A DNA stretch of 64,000 nucleotides from assembly GCF_013167955.1 (NCBI RefSeq), contig NZ_BLWF01000002.1, positions 413,185-477,184 of the forward strand, read 5' to 3'. This document shows positions 39,999-50,483 of this stretch, piece by piece; the first letter of the stretch is position 1, and the number at the start of each line of letters is the position of its first letter. The position numbers and the translations under genes are program-made. This DNA comes from Thermanaeromonas sp. C210. GTDB lineage: Bacteria; Bacillota; DSM-521; Neomoorellales; Neomoorellaceae. Below the pieces are notes generated by a model that saw nothing but the letters and a program-made list of their open reading frames with translations, had not been told where the DNA came from and searched no databases.

Positions 39999-41201
39999 TT
40001 AAAGCCTTTCGAGGATTACCTTGGCCTGCAGGGCGGCATAAAGATTCAAGAGGGTATTGATGTCCCGCAGATTCACCCCGAGGAGCTCCTCTACTTTCCG
40101 CAGCCGGTAGCGCAGGGTATTAACGTGGATGTAGAGCCTTTCCGCCGTTAAGGCGTAGTCCGCCGAGGAGCGGATGAACTCCACCAGGGTGGGCAGCAGG
40201 TTGGTGTTGTGCTGCCGGTCGTACTCCTCCACAGGGCCGAGAACGTCTTCGTAAAAGTCGGCCAGCTCCTGCTCCCCCTGGTTTAAGAAAAACCGCAGGG
40301 CGCCCAACTCGTCGAAAAAGGTGATGCCAGCTCCCGGGTAAAGGAAGCGGCCCACATGGAGGGCCAGTTTGGCCTCCTGATAGGCCCGGTAAAGCTGGTC
40401 CGGGGAAGCATAAAAGCGCCCCACGCCGGCCACGAGGTCCCGGCGGGGCAGGCACCGTCCGATCTCCCCCGTCACCCTTTCCCAGAACTTCCGGAGCCAG
40501 GCCTTGGCCTCCCCCGGGCTGCCGGAGGGGTGAGGCAGGAGGAGGATAAGCTGTTCGCTCCGGTCGGCCATAATGGCCTGGGGGCATTCCCGGGAGACTA
40601 CCCGCCCCACGAGCTGGCGGAGGCGCTCCATGGCGGCGGAAAACCCGGCCTCGGGAGGTTCCCGATACTCTAACACCACCAGGGCCTGGGGCCGGGACAG
40701 GTCCCATCCCCACAGTTGGGCCCGGGTGATAATGGCTTCCCGGCTCGGCAGGTTGTTGTAAAGGATATCCTGGATGAATTCGTTGCGAAAGCGCCTTTCC
40801 GCTTCTTGATGGGCCCGCAGGCGGGAAAGCTCCACCAGGGCCGCCCGGGAAGCCGCCCGCAGGTACTCCCGGTATCCTTCATCCCGCGTGCCCAGGAGGA
40901 CCAGGTAGCCCCAGAGCTCTTGGTGTCCGATGGCCGCCGTCAAAAAGTCGACCTGCTTCCCTTGGACGGACAGGGTACCGGCGAAGAATTCTTCTCCCTC
41001 CGTCCCCCGCCACACCTCGCACGGGAGGATATCTTCCTCCCAGAGGTCCTCCGTACCGGGGGGAAAGGAGGAGGCCAGAACCCTGAAGGCCACATCCATT
41101 ATGAGGCAGGGCTGCCCGGTCTCCTCCCTTAGAATCCTGGTAACGGAGGCAAGCCCCTCGCCGGCTGCGGCTGCTTCCAGGAAGCGACGCCAGATTTGCA
41201 T
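39999..41201 (-). CDS. PucR/CdaR-family transcriptional regulator
   Basis: 400 residues. A GAF-like N-terminal sensor region (~1-120), a GGDEF-like middle region with PEAGFSAAMERLRQLVGR, and the C-terminal PucR helix-turn-helix YALTAERLYIHVNTLRYRLRKVEELLGVNLRD (residues ~350-385) with a hydrophobic leucine-rich tail. PucR and CdaR proteins activate catabolic genes in response to an organic acid. The FAH gene follows it on the same strand 211 bases away, so it is the best candidate target, but the molybdoenzyme genes on the other side are possible. Confidence 0.88.
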   Translation of the reverse strand: MQIWRRFLEAAAAGEGLASVTRILREETGQPCLIMDVAFRVLASSFPPGTEDLWEEDILPCEVWRGTEGEEFFAGTLSVQGKQVDFLTAAIGHQELWGYLVLLGTRDEGYREYLRAASRAALVELSRLRAHQEAERRFRNEFIQDILYNNLPSREAIITRAQLWGWDLSRPQALVVLEYREPPEAGFSAAMERLRQLVGRVVSRECPQAIMADRSEQLILLLPHPSGSPGEAKAWLRKFWERVTGEIGRCLPRRDLVAGVGRFYASPDQLYRAYQEAKLALHVGRFLYPGAGITFFDELGALRFFLNQGEQELADFYEDVLGPVEEYDRQHNTNLLPTLVEFIRSSADYALTAERLYIHVNTLRYRLRKVEELLGVNLRDINTLLNLYAALQAKVILERL

Positions 41202-41397: not shown

Positions 41398-42006
41398 TCA
41401 CCCCGCGTCGGCCCGCCTGCGCCTCCCTTCCCCCTTATCCTCCCGCAGCCCGCCGGGACGCCGGGCAAAATACCGGCGGCCGGCGGGATTGATCTTGAAG
41501 CGGAGGCTGGGCCGGGTAAGGCTCACATCGCTCAGGCCGTACACCCACCTCTGCCAGACGCCCTCCCTTTCGGCCCTCAAATCCAGGAGATGCAGGGCTT
41601 TGACCGGACAGGCCTCTATACAGGCCGGCGAAAGGCCGGCGTCCAGCCGGTGGACGCACAGATCGCATTTGCCCGTCTTGCCGGTCAGGGGGTTGTAGCG
41701 GGGGGCCTGGAAGGGGCAGGCCCTGATGCAGGTGTTGCAGCCGTTGCAGCGCCCCGGGGAATGGAGGACCACCCCGTCCCGGCGCTTGGAGTACGCCCGC
41801 TGGGGGCAGACCCTGAAGCATTCCGGGTGCTCGCAGTGATTGCAGGCAAGGGAGAGGAAACAAAGCTGCAGAGTCCCCGCGACCTGCCTTTCCACCCGCT
41901 GCACCCGCCGGAAGGCCAGCACTCCTCCATGTTCATACCGGCAGGCCGTCTCGCAGGCGCGGCAGCCGGTGCACCGCGACAGGTCCAGCAGAAAACCCAG
42001 GGCCAT
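41398..42006 (-). CDS. Four-cluster ferredoxin subunit of molybdoenzyme A3
   Basis: 202 residues with sixteen Cys in four [4Fe-4S] motifs: CTGCRACETAC (start), CNHCEHPECFRVCP, CNGCNTCIRACP and CDLCVHRLDAGLSPACIEACP. This is the DmsB/PsrB-type electron-transfer subunit. ATG 42006 follows AAAGGGGGAGAGAG. The basic C-terminal tail (RRPGGLREDKGEGRRRR) is unusual. It follows its catalytic partner A3 by 13 bases. Unlike the DmsB at 45021 there is no membrane anchor gene next to it. Confidence 0.9.
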   Translation of the reverse strand: MALGFLLDLSRCTGCRACETACRYEHGGVLAFRRVQRVERQVAGTLQLCFLSLACNHCEHPECFRVCPQRAYSKRRDGVVLHSPGRCNGCNTCIRACPFQAPRYNPLTGKTGKCDLCVHRLDAGLSPACIEACPVKALHLLDLRAEREGVWQRWVYGLSDVSLTRPSLRFKINPAGRRYFARRPGGLREDKGEGRRRRADAG

Positions 42007-42019
42007 TCTCTCTCCCCCT

Positions 42020-44026
42020 TTAGAGGGGCTGCAGGTTAACAAAGGTGTCGTGGTACGCCACCCCCGGGCCACCGCAGGAAACGTGACCCATGTCCGTGGC
42101 CAGGGGCGGTACCAGGCTGTTGAGGTCGCCGTCCCTCCCCGGCTCTTGATAACACACCACACTGTCCCAGGGAACAACGGGACTTACGGCCAGGAGCACC
42201 CGGATCTCGCCCCACTCGTTGAAGATGCGCACCTTGCGGCCCGGCTGCCATCCCTTGGCCGCGGCCAGGTCCGGGTGCACCCAGGCCGTGAGGGGTGCCG
42301 GTTCCCTCGCCTCCCCGAACTGGGAGTTGATGCCCCCGGTGGTGTGGGGGGTGAGGAGGCGGTAGGGATAAAGGGAGGAACCGCGGGGAGCCGGCCGGAG
42401 CACGGGCAGGCCGGGCAATCCCCGCCGCCGGGCCTCCACAGAGTAGATATAGTATTTAATCTCCCGGGGCGCCGTCCACCCCTGTTTTAGGGGACGAGGG
42501 CCTTCCAGGAGCTCGCGAAAATGGCCGATGCCCAGGGCCTCGTAGACCCTGGGATTGAAGAGCCGGGCCAGCCATTCTTCCTCCGTCCGGTCCGCCGGGA
42601 AGGGGCGCAGGGCGGGGTCCAGCTCCCGTAAGGCCCGCACCAGGCCGGACACCACGGCAATTTCCGGCCGGGCTTCCCCGCGGGGAGGAAGGGCGGGCTG
42701 ATTAAGGCCTATCCAGTTGTGCCAGTAACTGGGCACCACATCCCAGGCCTCAAGGAACATGGCCGCCGGCAGGACCAGGTCGGCCATCCGGGCCGTCGGG
42801 GTAAGGAAATAGTCCACCACTACCACCAGTTCCATCTCCTGGAGGGCCCTGGCCAGCCCGTGGATATCGCTGTTCTGGCTCAGGGGATTGGCCCTGCTGA
42901 TAACGGCCATCTTTACGGGCGGGTCGTGGGCCCGGCGGAGGGCTCCGGCCAGGTCGTGGACCGGCAGCGCGCGGGGCTTCCGGCCCGCCGGTGCCCCTTC
43001 CACCGGCCGGGAGAACAGGGAGGTTTTATCATTGGCATAATACAGGCCTCCCGGCGGCGACAAGTTGCCGCTCAGGGCCACCAGGGCATGGATGGCCCGG
43101 ACGTTCTGACCGCCGTTGACGTGGCGCTGCAGGCCAAAGCCGATCCAGGTGGCCACCGGCCGGGGACCGGCATAAAGGTCGGCCAGCTCCCTGACGGCCC
43201 GGGGCTCTACCCCGCACAGGCCGGCCAGGTCTTCTACCGAAAGGTCCCGGAGATACGGCTCGAACTTCTCCCATCCCACCGCCTTACCGCGCAGGAAGGT
43301 TTTATCCAGGCGGTCCTCCTCCCAGAGGAGGCGCAGGACGGCCAGGGCAAGGGCCCCGTCGGTCCCCGGATTGAGCTGGATATAGCAGTCGGCGAGGGCC
43401 GCCGTGGCGGTGAAAAGGGGATCGATGACCGTAAGGCCGGCTCCCTTTTCCCGCGCCCGGTTAACGAACTCCATCTGCAAGGTGGCCGTCCAGGCGGGAT
43501 TGCCGCCCCAGATAACGATCTCCCCGGCTTCCGCCATGAGTTCCGGGTCCGCAGGAGGATAGCCGCCGAAGTCGTAGTAGGCTGCGTCCAAGCCCGCCCC
43601 CCAGCAGAGGGAACCGCCGGTGACGGTGACGTCTCCTAAAAAGTCGGCCAACCAATTCAGGCTCTGGCCTAAAAGGCCTAAATTGCCGGAATTGGTATAA
43701 AAAAGCACCGGCAGATAAGAACCGTACCGGGCTTTGAGGTCGGCCATCTTCCCGGCCATAAGCTCCAAGGCCCGGTCCCAGGTGGTACGCCGCCAGCTCC
43801 CGGTGCCCCGTCCCTGCTGGCGCAGGGGGTAAAGGAGGCGCCGGGGATGGTAGACCAGCTCCGGGTAGCTGTAGGCCAGGTGGCACATGCGGCCGTGGGA
43901 GTACCCGTGGGCCGCGTCGCCCCGGATCTCCCGGATCACTCCCCCTTCCACCAGGGAGAGGAGGCCGCACGCGTTATAGCAGTTCCGAGGGCAAACATGC
44001 CGGAAGATCTGTACCCTGTCCCCCAT
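42020..44026 (-). CDS. Cytoplasmic molybdopterin oxidoreductase (DMSO reductase family), A3
   Basis: 668 residues. [4Fe-4S] Cys at 12, 16, 20 and 48 (HVCPRNCYNACGLL, GRMCHL), then molybdopterin-binding and C-terminal domains (WVHPDLAAAKGW; PGVAYHDTFVNLQPL). There is no Tat signal, in contrast to both DmsA genes, so it should act in the cytoplasm. At the position equivalent to the Mo-ligating Ser in DmsA (in YYNTYS) this protein has GGSLCWGAGLD, aligning Asp, as in nitrate-reductase-like enzymes. Substrate unknown. ATG 44026 after GGGGGAGAAGGGACC. Confidence 0.88.
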   Translation of the reverse strand: MGDRVQIFRHVCPRNCYNACGLLSLVEGGVIREIRGDAAHGYSHGRMCHLAYSYPELVYHPRRLLYPLRQQGRGTGSWRRTTWDRALELMAGKMADLKARYGSYLPVLFYTNSGNLGLLGQSLNWLADFLGDVTVTGGSLCWGAGLDAAYYDFGGYPPADPELMAEAGEIVIWGGNPAWTATLQMEFVNRAREKGAGLTVIDPLFTATAALADCYIQLNPGTDGALALAVLRLLWEEDRLDKTFLRGKAVGWEKFEPYLRDLSVEDLAGLCGVEPRAVRELADLYAGPRPVATWIGFGLQRHVNGGQNVRAIHALVALSGNLSPPGGLYYANDKTSLFSRPVEGAPAGRKPRALPVHDLAGALRRAHDPPVKMAVISRANPLSQNSDIHGLARALQEMELVVVVDYFLTPTARMADLVLPAAMFLEAWDVVPSYWHNWIGLNQPALPPRGEARPEIAVVSGLVRALRELDPALRPFPADRTEEEWLARLFNPRVYEALGIGHFRELLEGPRPLKQGWTAPREIKYYIYSVEARRRGLPGLPVLRPAPRGSSLYPYRLLTPHTTGGINSQFGEAREPAPLTAWVHPDLAAAKGWQPGRKVRIFNEWGEIRVLLAVSPVVPWDSVVCYQEPGRDGDLNSLVPPLATDMGHVSCGGPGVAYHDTFVNLQPL

Positions 44027-44171: not shown

Positions 44172-44999
44172 CTAAAAATGGCCTACCATTATATTTACAC
44201 CGGTGCTGTAGAAGAGGTAACGCAGGATGCCTTCGCCCAGGAGGCCGACGGCCAGGGCCAGGTACAGCATGCTCGCGGTCGCGCCGGCCTGGTCTCCGGC
44301 CTGCCCCCGGGACGCAAACCGCCCCAGCAGGGCCAGGCCGACGGCGGCCATCACCGCCGCCACTCCCAGACCCAGGGTCACGGCCGAACGGGCCAGGAGC
44401 TGGGCGCTGGCCTGGGCGGCGGGCTCCCCGGACATGAGGCTTACCAGGTAGGGGGGCAGGGCCAGCAGTTGCACTCCCACGCCGGCCAAGGCCGCCCATA
44501 CCGTCCAGGACGGAGCCGGGGCCAGGGCCATGTACAGGAGGCAGCCCAGCACCAGGCTGGTGGCGAAAAAGCTTACGTAGGTGTAGGCCGTCTGCCAGGC
44601 GGGCCGCACGGTGTGGGTATAGATGGATGCCATGCTGAAGACGGCGAGGATTCCGGCGGCCAGCATGATCCACCGCAGGGCCTTAGCCGCTCCTCCTCCC
44701 CCGGCCTTCAGTTCCAGATAGGCGATAATCACCCACAGGCCGGTATAGGCGGAGGCGAAGAGGATTTCGCGGCTGAGCCACGAACTGCCCACATTGGCGA
44801 TGGCGCGATAGGCACCCCAGGGACTCCCCAAGTGGCCCAGGGAAACGAGGAGGCTCAAGACCGCCAGGCCCCCAACAACGAGCAGGACGTTCTTCCGGGC
44901 CTTATCCTCGTTTACGCCGGCCAGGAGGTCTACGGCGAACAGCCCTACGCTGGCCTGGTTAAGCAGGGTAAACAGTACCAAAGTCCACTCCCGTTCCAT
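44172..44999 (-). CDS. dmsC: DMSO reductase membrane anchor DmsC
   Basis: 275 residues, eight membrane segments (e.g. LVLFTLLNQASVGLFAVDLL, NVLLVVGGLAVLSLLVSLGHLG, AYTYVSFFATSLVLGCLLYMAL). Matches DmsC, which oxidises menaquinol and passes electrons to DmsB. HLGSPWGAYRAIANVGSSWLSREILF is the conserved quinol-site region of the family. ATG 44999 follows GGAGGTTAGCTGCA. Last gene of dmsA1-dmsA2-dmsB-dmsC. Confidence 0.9.
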   Translation of the reverse strand: MEREWTLVLFTLLNQASVGLFAVDLLAGVNEDKARKNVLLVVGGLAVLSLLVSLGHLGSPWGAYRAIANVGSSWLSREILFASAYTGLWVIIAYLELKAGGGGAAKALRWIMLAAGILAVFSMASIYTHTVRPAWQTAYTYVSFFATSLVLGCLLYMALAPAPSWTVWAALAGVGVQLLALPPYLVSLMSGEPAAQASAQLLARSAVTLGLGVAAVMAAVGLALLGRFASRGQAGDQAGATASMLYLALAVGLLGEGILRYLFYSTGVNIMVGHF

Positions 45000-45020
45000 T
45001 GCAGCTAACCTCCTTGCCTG

Positions 45021-45602
45021 TTATTTGTCCACGGCGTGCCGGTGGGGGCTTATGAGCAGGGAAGGTTTGGTCAGCTTGGGGTCAGGCAGCCCTTTAATGG
45101 CGCTGGTCCCCCCGTACTTCCTGGCAAGTTCCTCCAGGTCGCCGGCATGAAGGGCCCTCATGGGGCAGGCGGCCACGCAGGCCGGCTCTTCTCCCTTCTC
45201 GACGAGATCGAGGCAGAAGTTGCACTTGCCCACCTTGCCCTTGCCCGGATCGTATTGGGGCGCGCCGTAGGGGCAGCTCCAGGTGCAGTAACGGCAGCCG
45301 ATGCATTTCCTTTCGTCCACCAGCACTACGCCGTCTTCGGGCCGTTTATACATGGCTCCGGTGGGACAGTTTTTTACGCACAGGGGGTCCTGGCAGTGGT
45401 TGCAGCTTATGGAGATCCAGTAGGCGTACACGTTGCCCCGGATGGCCTCCCCCACGCGGGTATATCCCCCGCCGGCTATTTCTTCCACCCGGCGCCAGCG
45501 CTGGCCTACCTCCAGGTCGTTCTTGTCTTTGCAGGCTATCTGGCAGGTGAAACAGCCGATGCATCGGTCCTGTTCAACATGGAAACCGACCTGTCCAGCC
45601 AT
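45021..45602 (-). CDS. dmsB: DMSO reductase iron-sulfur subunit DmsB
   Basis: 193 residues with four [4Fe-4S] motifs: CIGCFTCQIACKDKND, CNHCQDPLCVKNCPTGAM, CIGCRYCTWSCPYGAP and CNFCLDLVEKGEEPACVAACP. QVGFHVEQDRCIGC is the DmsB N-terminus. ATG 45602 follows CGGAGGAGGAGAGACC, 17 bases from the dmsA2 stop. It is the only DmsB in the operon, so both DmsA paralogues presumably use it, as no other iron-sulfur subunit is encoded between them. Confidence 0.95.
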   Translation of the reverse strand: MAGQVGFHVEQDRCIGCFTCQIACKDKNDLEVGQRWRRVEEIAGGGYTRVGEAIRGNVYAYWISISCNHCQDPLCVKNCPTGAMYKRPEDGVVLVDERKCIGCRYCTWSCPYGAPQYDPGKGKVGKCNFCLDLVEKGEEPACVAACPMRALHAGDLEELARKYGGTSAIKGLPDPKLTKPSLLISPHRHAVDK

Positions 45603-45619
45603 GGTCTCTCCTCCTCCGC

Positions 45620-48013
45620 TTATAGCTTAACGACTTCCACCAGATTGGTGTGCTGGGGATTCCCGCGGGCCAGGGGCGTGGGATGATACTTGGTCAGCAC
45701 GTTAATGCAGCCCCTGGTATCCACTCCATCGGGCCCCGGCGTCCACCAGGCTCCCTGGGGCAGGGCCACCACGCCCGGCATGATGCGGGGTGTGACCTTG
45801 GCGTAGGTGATGGTAGCCCCGCGGTCGTTGAACACCTTGACCCGGTCCCCGTTCTTGATGCCCCGCTTGGCGGCATCTTCGGGATTGATCCAGAGCTCCT
45901 GCCGGGCCGCTTCCTCCATCCAGGGCACGTTATCAAAGGTGGAATGGACCCGCCGCTTGTAATGGGGGCCTATGCACTGGAGGGGGTACTTTTCCCGCAG
46001 GGGATCCTCCGGCCCCTCCCAGGCGGGAACATACTTGGGTATGGCCGGTATTTCCTTCGGTTTGTTCATAGCCCATAGGCGAGGCGAAAAAATCTCAATC
46101 TTGCCCGACGGCGTCTTGAAGGGGTTGTTGACCGGATCTTCGATCTGCTTTTTGTAGGGGATGATGGGCTCTTTGGGCACCACTTTGTAGATGCCCCGCC
46201 GGCGGAACTCCTCGAAGGTGGGAAAGTCGGGGTTCGCCTTCCGGGTCTCCTCTACGATGTAGCGCAGCCAGTCTTCCTCGGTCTTGCCTTCGGTGTACCG
46301 GTCGCCGAAGCCCAGCCTCTTAGCCAGTTCGCTGCACACCCAGTAAACGCTGCGGCACTCATGGGGCGGATCTACTACCTTCTGGTAGTAAATGGCATAA
46401 CCTATGCCGGAGCCGAAGGTAACGATGTCTTCCCTTTCAAAATGGGTGACATCGGGCAGCAGGATGTCGGCGAACCGAGCGCTCGGGGTAAGGAAGACGT
46501 CGTGTACCACTATCAGCTCGCATTTGGTTTCATCGACGAGGATCTGGGCCGTACGGTTTACGTCAGCGTGCTGGTTTATCAGGGTATTGCTGGCATAATT
46601 CCAGACCACCTTGATGTCGGTGGGTAATCTGTCCACCCCCCGAACCCCGTCGGCCGCCGTGAGCTCATGACCCCGCTCTATGGCCTCCGTCCACATGAAA
46701 CACGGGATGGCCGCCTTGACGGGATTTTCTCCCGCCGGCATCCAGGCCACGGAAACCCCCTGCCCGCTGTAGTAGAGGCCGGGACCGCCGCCCTTGATGC
46801 CGATGTTGCCCGTCATGGCCGCCAGGACCGGCAGGCCCCTAACCGGCTGCTCGCCGTAGGCATGGCGCTGCCAGCCCCAGCCCTGGATCAGGCAGCAGGG
46901 CTTAATGGTGGCGATCTGCCGGGCCAGTTTGATGATGGTGTCCCGCGGAACGCCCGTGATGGCCTCGGCCCACTCCGGCGTCTTGGGAGTCTTATCTTCG
47001 CCCAGGCCCAGCACGTAGCTCTTATAGGAGTTACCGGGCGGCACGCCGGGGGGCATGTGCTCTTCGTCAAAGCCCAGGCAGTATTTGTCCAGGAAGGCCT
47101 GATCGTGGAGGTTTTCCATGATGATCACATAGGCCAGGGCCGCGAGCAAGGCGTTATCGGTAGTAGGCCGTATGGGGATCCACTCGTCGGCCACATTGGC
47201 CGCCGTGTCCGTGTACCGGGGATCCACTACGATTATCCGGGCCCCTTTTTCCTTGGCCTGGCGCAGGTAGTAATGGTAGTTGGCCCCGCCGAGCCGCGTT
47301 TCAGCGGTGTTGTCGGCGAAGAGAACGATGAGTTTGGAGTACAGCAGGTTGTCCGGGCTTACCCCTTCCACCGAGCCGTAGGTGTAGGGGGCGGTAAAGC
47401 TGTAGCAGGCTGTGCTGTAGGTGTTGTAATATTCCAGGAAGCCGCCGAACATATTGAAAAAGCGTTTCAGGGCCCCGCCAAAGGCCGGGGTTATCCACGC
47501 CTGGCTGATCTGGCCGTAGATACCGGTGGCGTAATTCAAATAAATGGCCTCGTTGCCGTAAGTGTCCCGTATCCTCGTCAATTCCCGGGCGATGGTGTCC
47601 AAGGCTTCCTCCCAGGATATGCGCTCGAACTTGCCCTCTCCCCGCTTGCCCACCCGTTTCATGGGATACTTCAGGCGGTCGGGGTGGTATAGGCGCTGGC
47701 GCTGGGCGCGGCCTCGCAGGCAGGCCCTGGCCTGGGGCAGCTCGGGGCTGTCGGGGCCTTCCTGGTCGGAGCTGAAGCGCACCACTACGTTATCCCTTAC
47801 GTGGGCCCGGAGGTAGCAACGGCCGCCGCAGTTGTGGACGCAGCTGGTGGGAATGATCTTTTCCTCGCTCTGGTCGGCGGCTTCGGCCCTCGGGACCCCG
47901 GTCAGGGGCGTTAGCCTCCCCAAAAGGGCCGCCCCGCCCGCCGCCGCGGCGCTCAGGCCCAGGAACTTGCGGCGGGGTAAGGGTTTTTGCCACAGGTGCT
48001 TCACATTCTCCAA
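45620..48013 (-). CDS. dmsA: DMSO reductase catalytic subunit, paralogue 2
   Basis: 797 residues. Tat signal PRRKFLGLSAAAAGGAALL at residues ~14-32, then [4Fe-4S] Cys in CVHNCGGRC. The Mo-ligand Ser is expected in YYNTYSTACYSF. Extended stretches agree with E. coli DmsA (DQAFLDKYC, KTPEWAEAITGVP, RVHSTFDNV, and C-terminal GCINVLTKYHPTPLARGNP). Exported, so reduction takes place outside the membrane. Substrate may be DMSO, TMAO or another N- or S-oxide. Paralogue of the gene just upstream. Starts at ATG 48013. Confidence 0.9.
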   Translation of the reverse strand: MENVKHLWQKPLPRRKFLGLSAAAAGGAALLGRLTPLTGVPRAEAADQSEEKIIPTSCVHNCGGRCYLRAHVRDNVVVRFSSDQEGPDSPELPQARACLRGRAQRQRLYHPDRLKYPMKRVGKRGEGKFERISWEEALDTIARELTRIRDTYGNEAIYLNYATGIYGQISQAWITPAFGGALKRFFNMFGGFLEYYNTYSTACYSFTAPYTYGSVEGVSPDNLLYSKLIVLFADNTAETRLGGANYHYYLRQAKEKGARIIVVDPRYTDTAANVADEWIPIRPTTDNALLAALAYVIIMENLHDQAFLDKYCLGFDEEHMPPGVPPGNSYKSYVLGLGEDKTPKTPEWAEAITGVPRDTIIKLARQIATIKPCCLIQGWGWQRHAYGEQPVRGLPVLAAMTGNIGIKGGGPGLYYSGQGVSVAWMPAGENPVKAAIPCFMWTEAIERGHELTAADGVRGVDRLPTDIKVVWNYASNTLINQHADVNRTAQILVDETKCELIVVHDVFLTPSARFADILLPDVTHFEREDIVTFGSGIGYAIYYQKVVDPPHECRSVYWVCSELAKRLGFGDRYTEGKTEEDWLRYIVEETRKANPDFPTFEEFRRRGIYKVVPKEPIIPYKKQIEDPVNNPFKTPSGKIEIFSPRLWAMNKPKEIPAIPKYVPAWEGPEDPLREKYPLQCIGPHYKRRVHSTFDNVPWMEEAARQELWINPEDAAKRGIKNGDRVKVFNDRGATITYAKVTPRIMPGVVALPQGAWWTPGPDGVDTRGCINVLTKYHPTPLARGNPQHTNLVEVVKL

Positions 48014-48131
48014 AAACTGACACCTCCCGCTCCTTTGGTGGTATATCCCCTTAACCTACTCCACGTTCTCCGGGTGACACCCCTTTCCCTCCGCCGGGGC
48101 TCCAGCCGGGCTGGCCTTCAACCCGGCGGAG

Positions 48132-50483
48132 CTATACCTTCGCCACTTCCACAAGGTTGGTATGCTGGGGATTGGCCTTGGCCAGGGGTGTGGGCCGGGA
48201 GCTGGTCAGCACGTTTATGCAGCCCCGCTGGTCCACCCCGTCGGGCCCGGGCGTCCACCAGGCTCCCTGGGGTATGGCCACCACTCCGGGCATAATGCGG
48301 GGGGTGACCTTAACGTTGATCATGAGGGCACCGCGGTCGTTGAACACCTTAACCCGGTCGCCGTCCTTAATGCCCCGGGGAGCAGCATCTTGGGGGTTCA
48401 TCCACATAACCTGGGGAGCCACTTCTTCCATCCAGGGCACGTTATCAAAGGTGGAGTGGGTGCGGCGGCGGTAATGCCAGCCGATGCACTGGAGGGGGTA
48501 TTTCTCCCGCAGGGAATCCTCCGGCCCCTCCCAGGCGGGGATGTATTTGGGCACCGCAGGTATCTCCCGGGGATTGTTCATCTCCCACAGCCGGGGGGAG
48601 AAGATCTCGATCTTGCCCGAAGGCGTGGGGAAGGGGTTGTTCTCCGGGTCCTCGATCTGTTCCTTGAAGGCGATGAAATTCTCGGGATAGGAGAACTTAT
48701 AGACACCCCGCTTCCTGAATTCTTCAAAGGACGGAAAGTCGGGGTGGTTCTTGCGGGTCTCCTCCACCACATACCGCAGCCAATCTTCCTCGCTCCGGCC
48801 CTCGGTAAACTCCTGCCCTAACCCCAGGCGCTCGGCCAGCATGCTAATCCACTCGTACTCGCTCTTGCACTCGTACATGCTGTCGATGGCCTTGTTCATG
48901 AACAGCACGTAGTCGCCCCAGCCCCAGGGAGTGCAGATATCGTTCCGCTCCATCCAGGTGTTGACCGGCAGCAGGATGTCGGCGAAGCGGGCGCTGGGAG
49001 TCATAAACTGCTCGCTCACCACGATAAATTCTACTTTCTTCTCGTCCCGCAGGATTTCGGCCGTGCGGTTGACATCGGCGTGCTGGTTGATGAGGGCGTT
49101 GCCCGCCAGGTTGAAAATAAGCTTAATGTTGGTGGGCAGACGGTCTACCCCCTGGACCCCGTCGGCCGGGCCCATTTCCACCCCCCTCACCGCGGCTTCC
49201 GTCCACAGGAAGCAGGGGATGGAGGCTTGCACTGGATTCTTGAGGCCGACGCTGCCTATCTTGGGACCCCGGCCGTATCCGGGATAGCCCATGGCGCCGG
49301 CAAACCCTCCGCTGCGGCCTATGTTGCCCGTCATGGCCGCCAGGACCGCAGCCCCCCGGGGCGGCTGCTCGCCGTAGGCATGGCGCTGGACGCCGAACCC
49401 GCAGATTAAGGCCGCCGGCTTTACAGTAGCGTATTCCCGCGCCAGCTGGATGATGGTTTCCTTGGGAACGCCGGTGATCCTCTCGGCCCACTCCGGCGTC
49501 TTGGGGGTTTTGTCCTCACCCAGGCCCAGGACGTAGGACTTGTAGGAGTTGCCGGGCGGCACACCCTCCGGCAGGTGTTCATCGTCAAAACCCAGGCAGT
49601 ACTTGTCGAGGAAGGCCTGGTCGTGGAGGCCTTCAGTGATCATAACGTAGGCCATGGCATCCATAAGGGCATTGTCCGTGGTAGGCCGGATGGGGATCCA
49701 CTGGTCGGCCAGGGCAATAACCGTGTCGGAGTACCGGGGATCGACAACTATAATGCGGGCCCCGGCTTCCTTGGCCCGGCGCAGGTAATATATGGTGTTG
49801 GTGCCGTGGATGGTCTCGGCCGGGTTGAAGCCCCACAGGATAATGAGCTTGGAGTTGACGAGGTCCTCCCGGCTGTTAGCCGCGTTCTGGTCGCCGAAGG
49901 TGTAATTTAGGGCCCAGGTAACGCAGGGATTGCTGTAGTTGTTGTAGTAGTTCAGGTATCCGCCGTAAAGGCTCAACAGCCGGCGGATGAGGTTGCCGCC
50001 CGAAAGGACCCCGGCGTTACCGGTGGCGTAATTGACGTAGATGGCCTCCGGCCCGTAGGTCTCTTTAATACGCCTTAGCTCCCGCGCAATGCTGTCGATG
50101 GCCTCGTCCCAGGTGATGCGCTCGAACTTCCCCTCGCCCCGCTCCCCGGTCCTCTTTAAAGGGAATTTCAGCCGGTCCGGGTGATAGAGGCGGTTGCGGT
50201 AGGCCCGGCCGCGCAGGCAGGCCCGCAGCTGGGGAGTCTCCGGCGTGTCGGGCTCGTCGTCGGTGGTGATGCGGGTTATAACGCCGTTGCGCACGTGGGC
50301 CTTCAATACACACCGCCCGCCGCAGTTGTGATTGCAGGCCGTGGGGACGATCTTTACTTCTTCCTCGGCCCCGGCAGGAGCGGCTCCCTTAAGCCCCCAA
50401 CCGGACCAGGACCCCGCGGCCAGAGCACTTGTTCCCCCGAGAACAATCCCGGCTTTAAGAAAGCTCCGGCGGGAAAGCTTCAT
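48132..50483 (-). CDS. dmsA: DMSO reductase catalytic subunit, paralogue 1
   Basis: 783 residues. Tat signal SRRSFLKAGIVLGGTSALAA at residues ~3-22, [4Fe-4S] Cys in CNHNCGGRCVLKAHV. The Mo-ligand Ser is expected in YYNNYSNPCVTW. C-terminus GCINVLTSSRPTPLAKANP as in DmsA. First gene of the operon; ATG 50483 after AGGAGAG. Differs from paralogue 2 at several substrate-channel positions around the Mo site (NPCVTWALNYTFGD versus TACYSFTAPYTYGS), suggesting a different oxidant. No TorD/DmsD chaperone gene adjoins. Confidence 0.9.
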   Translation of the reverse strand: MKLSRRSFLKAGIVLGGTSALAAGSWSGWGLKGAAPAGAEEEVKIVPTACNHNCGGRCVLKAHVRNGVITRITTDDEPDTPETPQLRACLRGRAYRNRLYHPDRLKFPLKRTGERGEGKFERITWDEAIDSIARELRRIKETYGPEAIYVNYATGNAGVLSGGNLIRRLLSLYGGYLNYYNNYSNPCVTWALNYTFGDQNAANSREDLVNSKLIILWGFNPAETIHGTNTIYYLRRAKEAGARIIVVDPRYSDTVIALADQWIPIRPTTDNALMDAMAYVMITEGLHDQAFLDKYCLGFDDEHLPEGVPPGNSYKSYVLGLGEDKTPKTPEWAERITGVPKETIIQLAREYATVKPAALICGFGVQRHAYGEQPPRGAAVLAAMTGNIGRSGGFAGAMGYPGYGRGPKIGSVGLKNPVQASIPCFLWTEAAVRGVEMGPADGVQGVDRLPTNIKLIFNLAGNALINQHADVNRTAEILRDEKKVEFIVVSEQFMTPSARFADILLPVNTWMERNDICTPWGWGDYVLFMNKAIDSMYECKSEYEWISMLAERLGLGQEFTEGRSEEDWLRYVVEETRKNHPDFPSFEEFRKRGVYKFSYPENFIAFKEQIEDPENNPFPTPSGKIEIFSPRLWEMNNPREIPAVPKYIPAWEGPEDSLREKYPLQCIGWHYRRRTHSTFDNVPWMEEVAPQVMWMNPQDAAPRGIKDGDRVKVFNDRGALMINVKVTPRIMPGVVAIPQGAWWTPGPDGVDQRGCINVLTSSRPTPLAKANPQHTNLVEVAKV

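Follow-up and report, generated by a model that had tools for sequence, protein, structure and literature searches.

Positions 413,185 to 477,184 of contig NZ_BLWF01000002.1 from Thermanaeromonas sp. C210 (a stretch of 64,000 nucleotides, hereafter the window) contain a dms operon. It likely encodes a respiratory oxidoreductase of the DmsABC/YnfEFGH type in which either of two catalytic heads would sit on a single DmsB-DmsC arm. All four genes are intact on the minus strand (50483-44172), at the coordinates given in an earlier reading of this DNA (the original prediction), in the order dmsA1, dmsA2, dmsB and dmsC. The products of dmsA1 (48132-50483, 783 amino acids, ATG start) and dmsA2 (45620-48013, 797 amino acids, TTG start shortly behind a GGGAGG-type ribosome-binding site) are predicted to be catalytic subunits that bind molybdenum-bis(molybdopterin guanine dinucleotide) (Mo-bisMGD) and are exported by twin-arginine translocation (Tat), DmsA1 being of a Firmicutes/Sporomusa type and DmsA2 of a Moorella type. 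Spacers of about 20 bases each precede dmsB (45021-45602, 193 amino acids), encoding a four-cluster [4Fe-4S] electron-transfer subunit with 16 cysteines, and dmsC (44172-44999, 275 amino acids), which by homology encodes a menaquinol-oxidizing membrane anchor.

The family assignments are clear. Both DmsA1 (1062.6 bits) and DmsA2 (1071.6 bits) exceed the curated cut-off of TIGR02166 (dmsA_ynfE, 777.7 bits), DmsB exceeds that of TIGR02951 (dmsB; 264.2 against 214.1 bits) and DmsC that of PF04976 (84.2 against 22.3 bits). DmsA1 contains the Pfam domains PF00384, PF04879 and PF01568 and its PDB matches are dimethyl sulfoxide (DMSO) and trimethylamine N-oxide (TMAO) reductases; a PDB search with DmsC gave no match. 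DmsB has in common with E. coli DmsB the residues of the four cluster-binding motifs. Twin-arginine motifs are found at the N-termini of both heads (SRRSFLK in DmsA1 and PRRKFLG in DmsA2) and the genome encodes TatC (232.8 bits). Coordinates, profile scores and Tat motifs therefore bear out the original prediction of two complete, tandem, Tat-exported DmsA genes before one DmsB and one DmsC. The two heads are 66% identical and each retains the four cysteines of the FS0 cluster (CCCC) as well as the serine at the Mo-ligand position (NNYSNPC in DmsA1 and NTYSTAC in DmsA2, aligned with GDYSSAQ in E. coli). The heads differ in the residues beside this serine and in seven consecutive residues close by, confirming the divergent Mo-site surroundings reported before. 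The two heads may act on different substrates, and these divergent residues make a difference between S- and N-oxides plausible. Both proteins score below the cut-offs of the YnfE and YnfF exception models, which remains compatible with selenate activity.

The original prediction had described interchangeable heads on one electron-input arm. A search of the whole genome (2.68 Mb in 19 contigs, 99.39% complete) with TIGR02951 found no second DmsB above the cut-off, so that the arrangement it had named as contrary to this idea, a separate DmsB elsewhere for each DmsA, was not seen. This argues for a shared arm because no other DmsB of that rank exists for DmsA1, or for an orphan third DmsA on contig C4. 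Sharing is also supported by relatives that keep the arm constant while the heads diverge. Three genomes of the same family (G006, G011 and G014) appear to be Moorella-like, judging by the genes they contain and by published descriptions of linked dms clusters in Moorella. Two of these carry two dmsABC copies each (L158 in G011, L159 and L160 in G014), in which the DmsA pair is 57% identical but DmsB is 100% and DmsC 98-100% identical; E. coli shows the same trend, with DmsB and YnfG 94% identical against 67% for DmsA and YnfE. Further support comes from the foreign catalytic gene srnA, which on its own is enough to bring back selenate reduction in E. coli lacking ynfEF (PMC12724226), and from the metagenome-assembled genome (MAG) UBA7701 of the Sporomusaceae, where the A1-A2-B-C order recurs with a chaperone gene and with orthologous heads. 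Taken together, the use of DmsB-DmsC by both heads, as read from sequence, is well supported but not proven.

Under this shared-arm reading, DmsC would take electrons from menaquinol and DmsB would relay them through four [4Fe-4S] clusters, along a path modelled on E. coli DmsABC. DmsA1 or DmsA2 would be loaded with Mo-bisMGD and folded in the cytoplasm before Tat export, and either head could then dock on the same DmsB and pass the electrons to an S-, N- or oxyanion substrate outside the membrane. Consistent with such a scheme, DMSO reduction in M. thermoacetica is membrane-bound and draws electrons from menaquinone (PMC13391211). Two of the three linked dms clusters of that species rise in transcripts (PMC13391211), which makes separate regulation of the heads plausible. 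A preprint reports that Salmonella DmsA paralogues have acquired sulfate reductase activity (PMC12636705), a warning against presuming DMSO or TMAO as the substrate.

The two heads have different origins. In a tree of 30 DmsA-family proteins (earlier trees were also built), DmsA2 groups with the DmsA of G014 (support 100/100), to which it is 86% identical, while DmsA1 falls in a Firmicutes clade with Sporomusa and the A1 head of UBA7701 (support 100/99). DmsA1 is nearer to the C4 orphan, Sporomusa and UBA7701 A1 than to DmsA2. The adjacency of dmsA1 and dmsA2 and the 66% identity of their products could suggest a recent tandem duplication that serves gene dosage or redundancy with no division of labour. 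Yet forcing the two as sisters worsens the log-likelihood by 411 and is rejected by the approximately unbiased (AU) test (p-AU 1.9e-7). A recent local duplication of dmsA is thereby ruled out, and we give the dosage or redundancy reading almost no credence, although the two heads could still overlap in substrate. The term paralogues, as originally applied to the pair, holds in the broad sense but not in that of local tandem duplicates. Rather, DmsA2 would be the resident head of the Moorella family and DmsA1 a member of another DmsA lineage that came to stand beside it through transfer or through loss in relatives. YnfE and YnfF pair with each other (99/98), and orthology of the window heads to them was not recovered in the tree. 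Since YnfE and YnfF lie in another part of the tree from DmsA1 and DmsA2, the two-headed layout arose at least twice, and the window operon would work like ynfEF without being descended from it.

Members of the DmsA1 clade differ at the FS0 site. The window DmsA1 has the standard set (CCCC with CLRGR), whereas the C4 orphan, Sporomusa and UBA7701 A1 have a glycine together with CLRCR. Across A1-clade proteins (L154:9693-12068, L021:9944-12349, L023:9914-12268 and others) the first FS0 cysteine is replaced by glycine and a new cysteine appears in CLRCR, possibly as a moved cluster ligand; many others have glycine or serine at this position and no replacement cysteine. We considered the FS0 difference as a bar to DmsB sharing and set it aside: the motif does not decide docking because both types occur together in a single UBA7701 operon.

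Several points weigh against a shared arm with two working heads. Members of the DmsA1 clade usually have their own DmsB, so the docking of DmsA1 on the window DmsB is assumed, and a second DmsB could be missing from the assembly. Gene conversion between dmsA1 and dmsA2, which would have strengthened the shared-arm reading, is not clearly supported, as their longest identical run (29 nt) lies at the 95th percentile of synonymous shuffles. Other pairs equal them in excess codon identity (z 4.3 here, z 5.7 for the C4 orphan and G014), and the signal is distinctive only over the final 87 codons (z 3.1). Trees of separate regions disagree at the C-terminal domain: there UBA7701 A1 joins the A2 type (0.984) and the placement of the window DmsA1 is poorly supported. 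Finally, YnfF adds little selenate reductase activity in Salmonella (PMC5203670), so such pairs can include a head that does almost nothing. It is thus conceivable, although in our view unlikely, that DmsA2 is the sole working head and DmsA1 a newcomer that is tolerated but weakly expressed or unable to dock. DmsA2 is the resident orthologue with a matching DmsB, and a search of other genomes of the class found no A1-type head. However, DmsA1 is intact with all ligands present and is under purifying selection: by the NG86 method the ratio of nonsynonymous to synonymous substitution rates (dN/dS) is about 0.13 between dmsA1 and the C4 orphan and 0.06 between dmsA2 and its G014 counterpart, with dS saturated in these estimates. 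In addition, UBA7701 has retained the A1-A2 tandem despite the wide divergence of the two lineages.

DmsA1 might instead use another iron-sulfur and anchor pair or act as a soluble exported enzyme. The genome holds at least 16 PF00384 molybdopterin oxidoreductase genes and two DmsC genes, one in the window and one on contig C1, the latter beside its own distant catalytic gene and a gene for a DmsB-like ferredoxin. This ferredoxin, however, is only 44% identical to the window DmsB and scores under the DmsB cut-off (164.8 against 214.1 bits), its gene is overlapped by four bases by its own catalytic gene, and dmsA1 sits 5' in the same gene run as dmsB and dmsC. We therefore regard this explanation as quite improbable.

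The orphan on C4 (G000:C4:86698-89034; L154:9693-12068) has neither DmsB nor DmsC alongside and is 70% identical to DmsA1. Over its first 30 residues it matches the signal of G014 DmsA at 87% identity and that of DmsA1 at 40%, while its body is of the A1 type, and the radical-SAM gene upstream of it shares 77% identity with the gene that precedes dmsA in G014. The orphan seems to be a chimera that stayed behind at a remnant of the ancestral dms locus, and the chaperone of the window heads would also fit its signal. A bolder and more doubtful proposal, which we hold only tentatively, is that three divergent DmsA heads (the two in the window and the orphan) depend on a single DmsB-DmsC arm and a single chaperone, and that this family gains substrates by swapping heads while the arm stays constant.

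The original prediction also stated that no DmsD/TorD chaperone is present. This is true of the dms locus, where no gene of that family occurs, but wrong for the genome: a chaperone gene search found one TorD-family gene, in trans on contig C3 (C3:268509, PF02613 123.7 bits), whose product shares 57% identity with the chaperone linked to dms in G006. It adjoins a ferredoxin gene whose product is 42% identical to a ferredoxin encoded inside the relatives' dms cluster. In G006 and G009 that cluster runs dmsA-B-C, ferredoxin, an oxidoreductase pair, a PucR regulator and a TorD-family chaperone, and the G011 cluster likewise ends with the chaperone gene. Compared with these, the window locus has retained the PucR gene and the oxidoreductase pair and lacks the ferredoxin and chaperone genes. 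Since these two lie side by side on C3 and resemble the relatives' cluster genes, the chaperone gene has most likely moved rather than been lost. A single TorD/DmsD-family chaperone would then probably serve both window heads and the orphan. E. coli DmsABC likewise depends on a DmsD encoded elsewhere (PMC12096835; PMC4464133); the absence of a neighbouring chaperone gene does not mean the absence of a chaperone.

The gap between dmsA1 and dmsA2 (48014-48131, minus strand, 118 bp) contains a GC-rich hairpin that is not clearly beyond chance (z -1.71; 12 of 200 shuffles folded equally well), and it has no promoter or terminator match. Promoter and terminator scans overall gave counts at the chance level. 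The fold of the stretch after dmsC is within the range of its shuffles (z -0.62). Outside the four-gene unit and on the same strand lies a pair of genes that the original prediction omitted: a molybdopterin oxidoreductase (42020-44026, PF00384 123 bits), 53% identical to the G006/G014 gene and syntenic in relatives, and its partner, a DmsB-like ferredoxin (about 41398-42006, PF13247) that is 61% identical to the relatives' gene and scores 121.4 bits with TIGR02951, below the cut-off. This pair has no Tat signal and no anchor gene and is kept beside dmsABC in the Moorella-like genomes and in Sporomusa; a cysteine in the GGSLCWGAG motif of the oxidoreductase may be a metal ligand. A PucR-type gene (39999-41201, minus strand; PF13556, PF17853), 49-50% identical to the relatives' gene at the same place, is a candidate regulator.

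Among known systems, the two-headed layout has already been named and experimentally studied as ynfEFGH (PMC5203670; PMC12724226). The ynfEFGH-dmsD selenate/tellurate reductase operon of E. coli and Salmonella likewise has two tandem TIGR02166 genes followed on one strand by a single DmsB-type and a single DmsC-type gene, with Tat signals on both heads and a similar head-to-head identity (71% for YnfE/YnfF, 66% here). Unlike the window heads, however, YnfE and YnfF belong to one lineage and dmsD is adjacent, and they are only about 50% identical to the window heads. E. coli dmsABC resembles the window in its protein families, gene order and chaperone in trans but has a single head. The dmsABC clusters of the Moorella family share orthologous A2, B and C genes (DmsB 75-77% and DmsC 47-49% identical to those of the window), the downstream oxidoreductase pair and the PucR regulator, but every head there comes with a B(-C) copy of its own, as in the three linked dmsBA clusters of M. 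thermoacetica. Closest in layout is UBA7701 (L023), although its chaperone gene directly follows dmsC and neither of its heads (L023:9914-14648) has a clear twin-arginine motif at the predicted start, which may reflect the choice of start or a loss of export. Among roughly 80 further DmsA-homologue loci, from a phylum search that scored two candidates per genome rather than taking a census and in which several small contigs cut off the neighbourhood, two adjacent DmsA genes before one B were seen only in L023 and in E. coli ynfEFGH. The window operon would therefore be a useful fresh example of swappable respiratory enzyme heads rather than a new type of system. The layout was assembled independently in a Moorella-family bacterium and provides a second case, outside the Proteobacteria, whose heads come from different lineages. 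Combined with the relatives in which identical DmsB proteins serve DmsA pairs of only 57% identity, this case turns the exchange of heads on an unchanging electron-input arm into a rule that can be tested for these respiratory enzymes.

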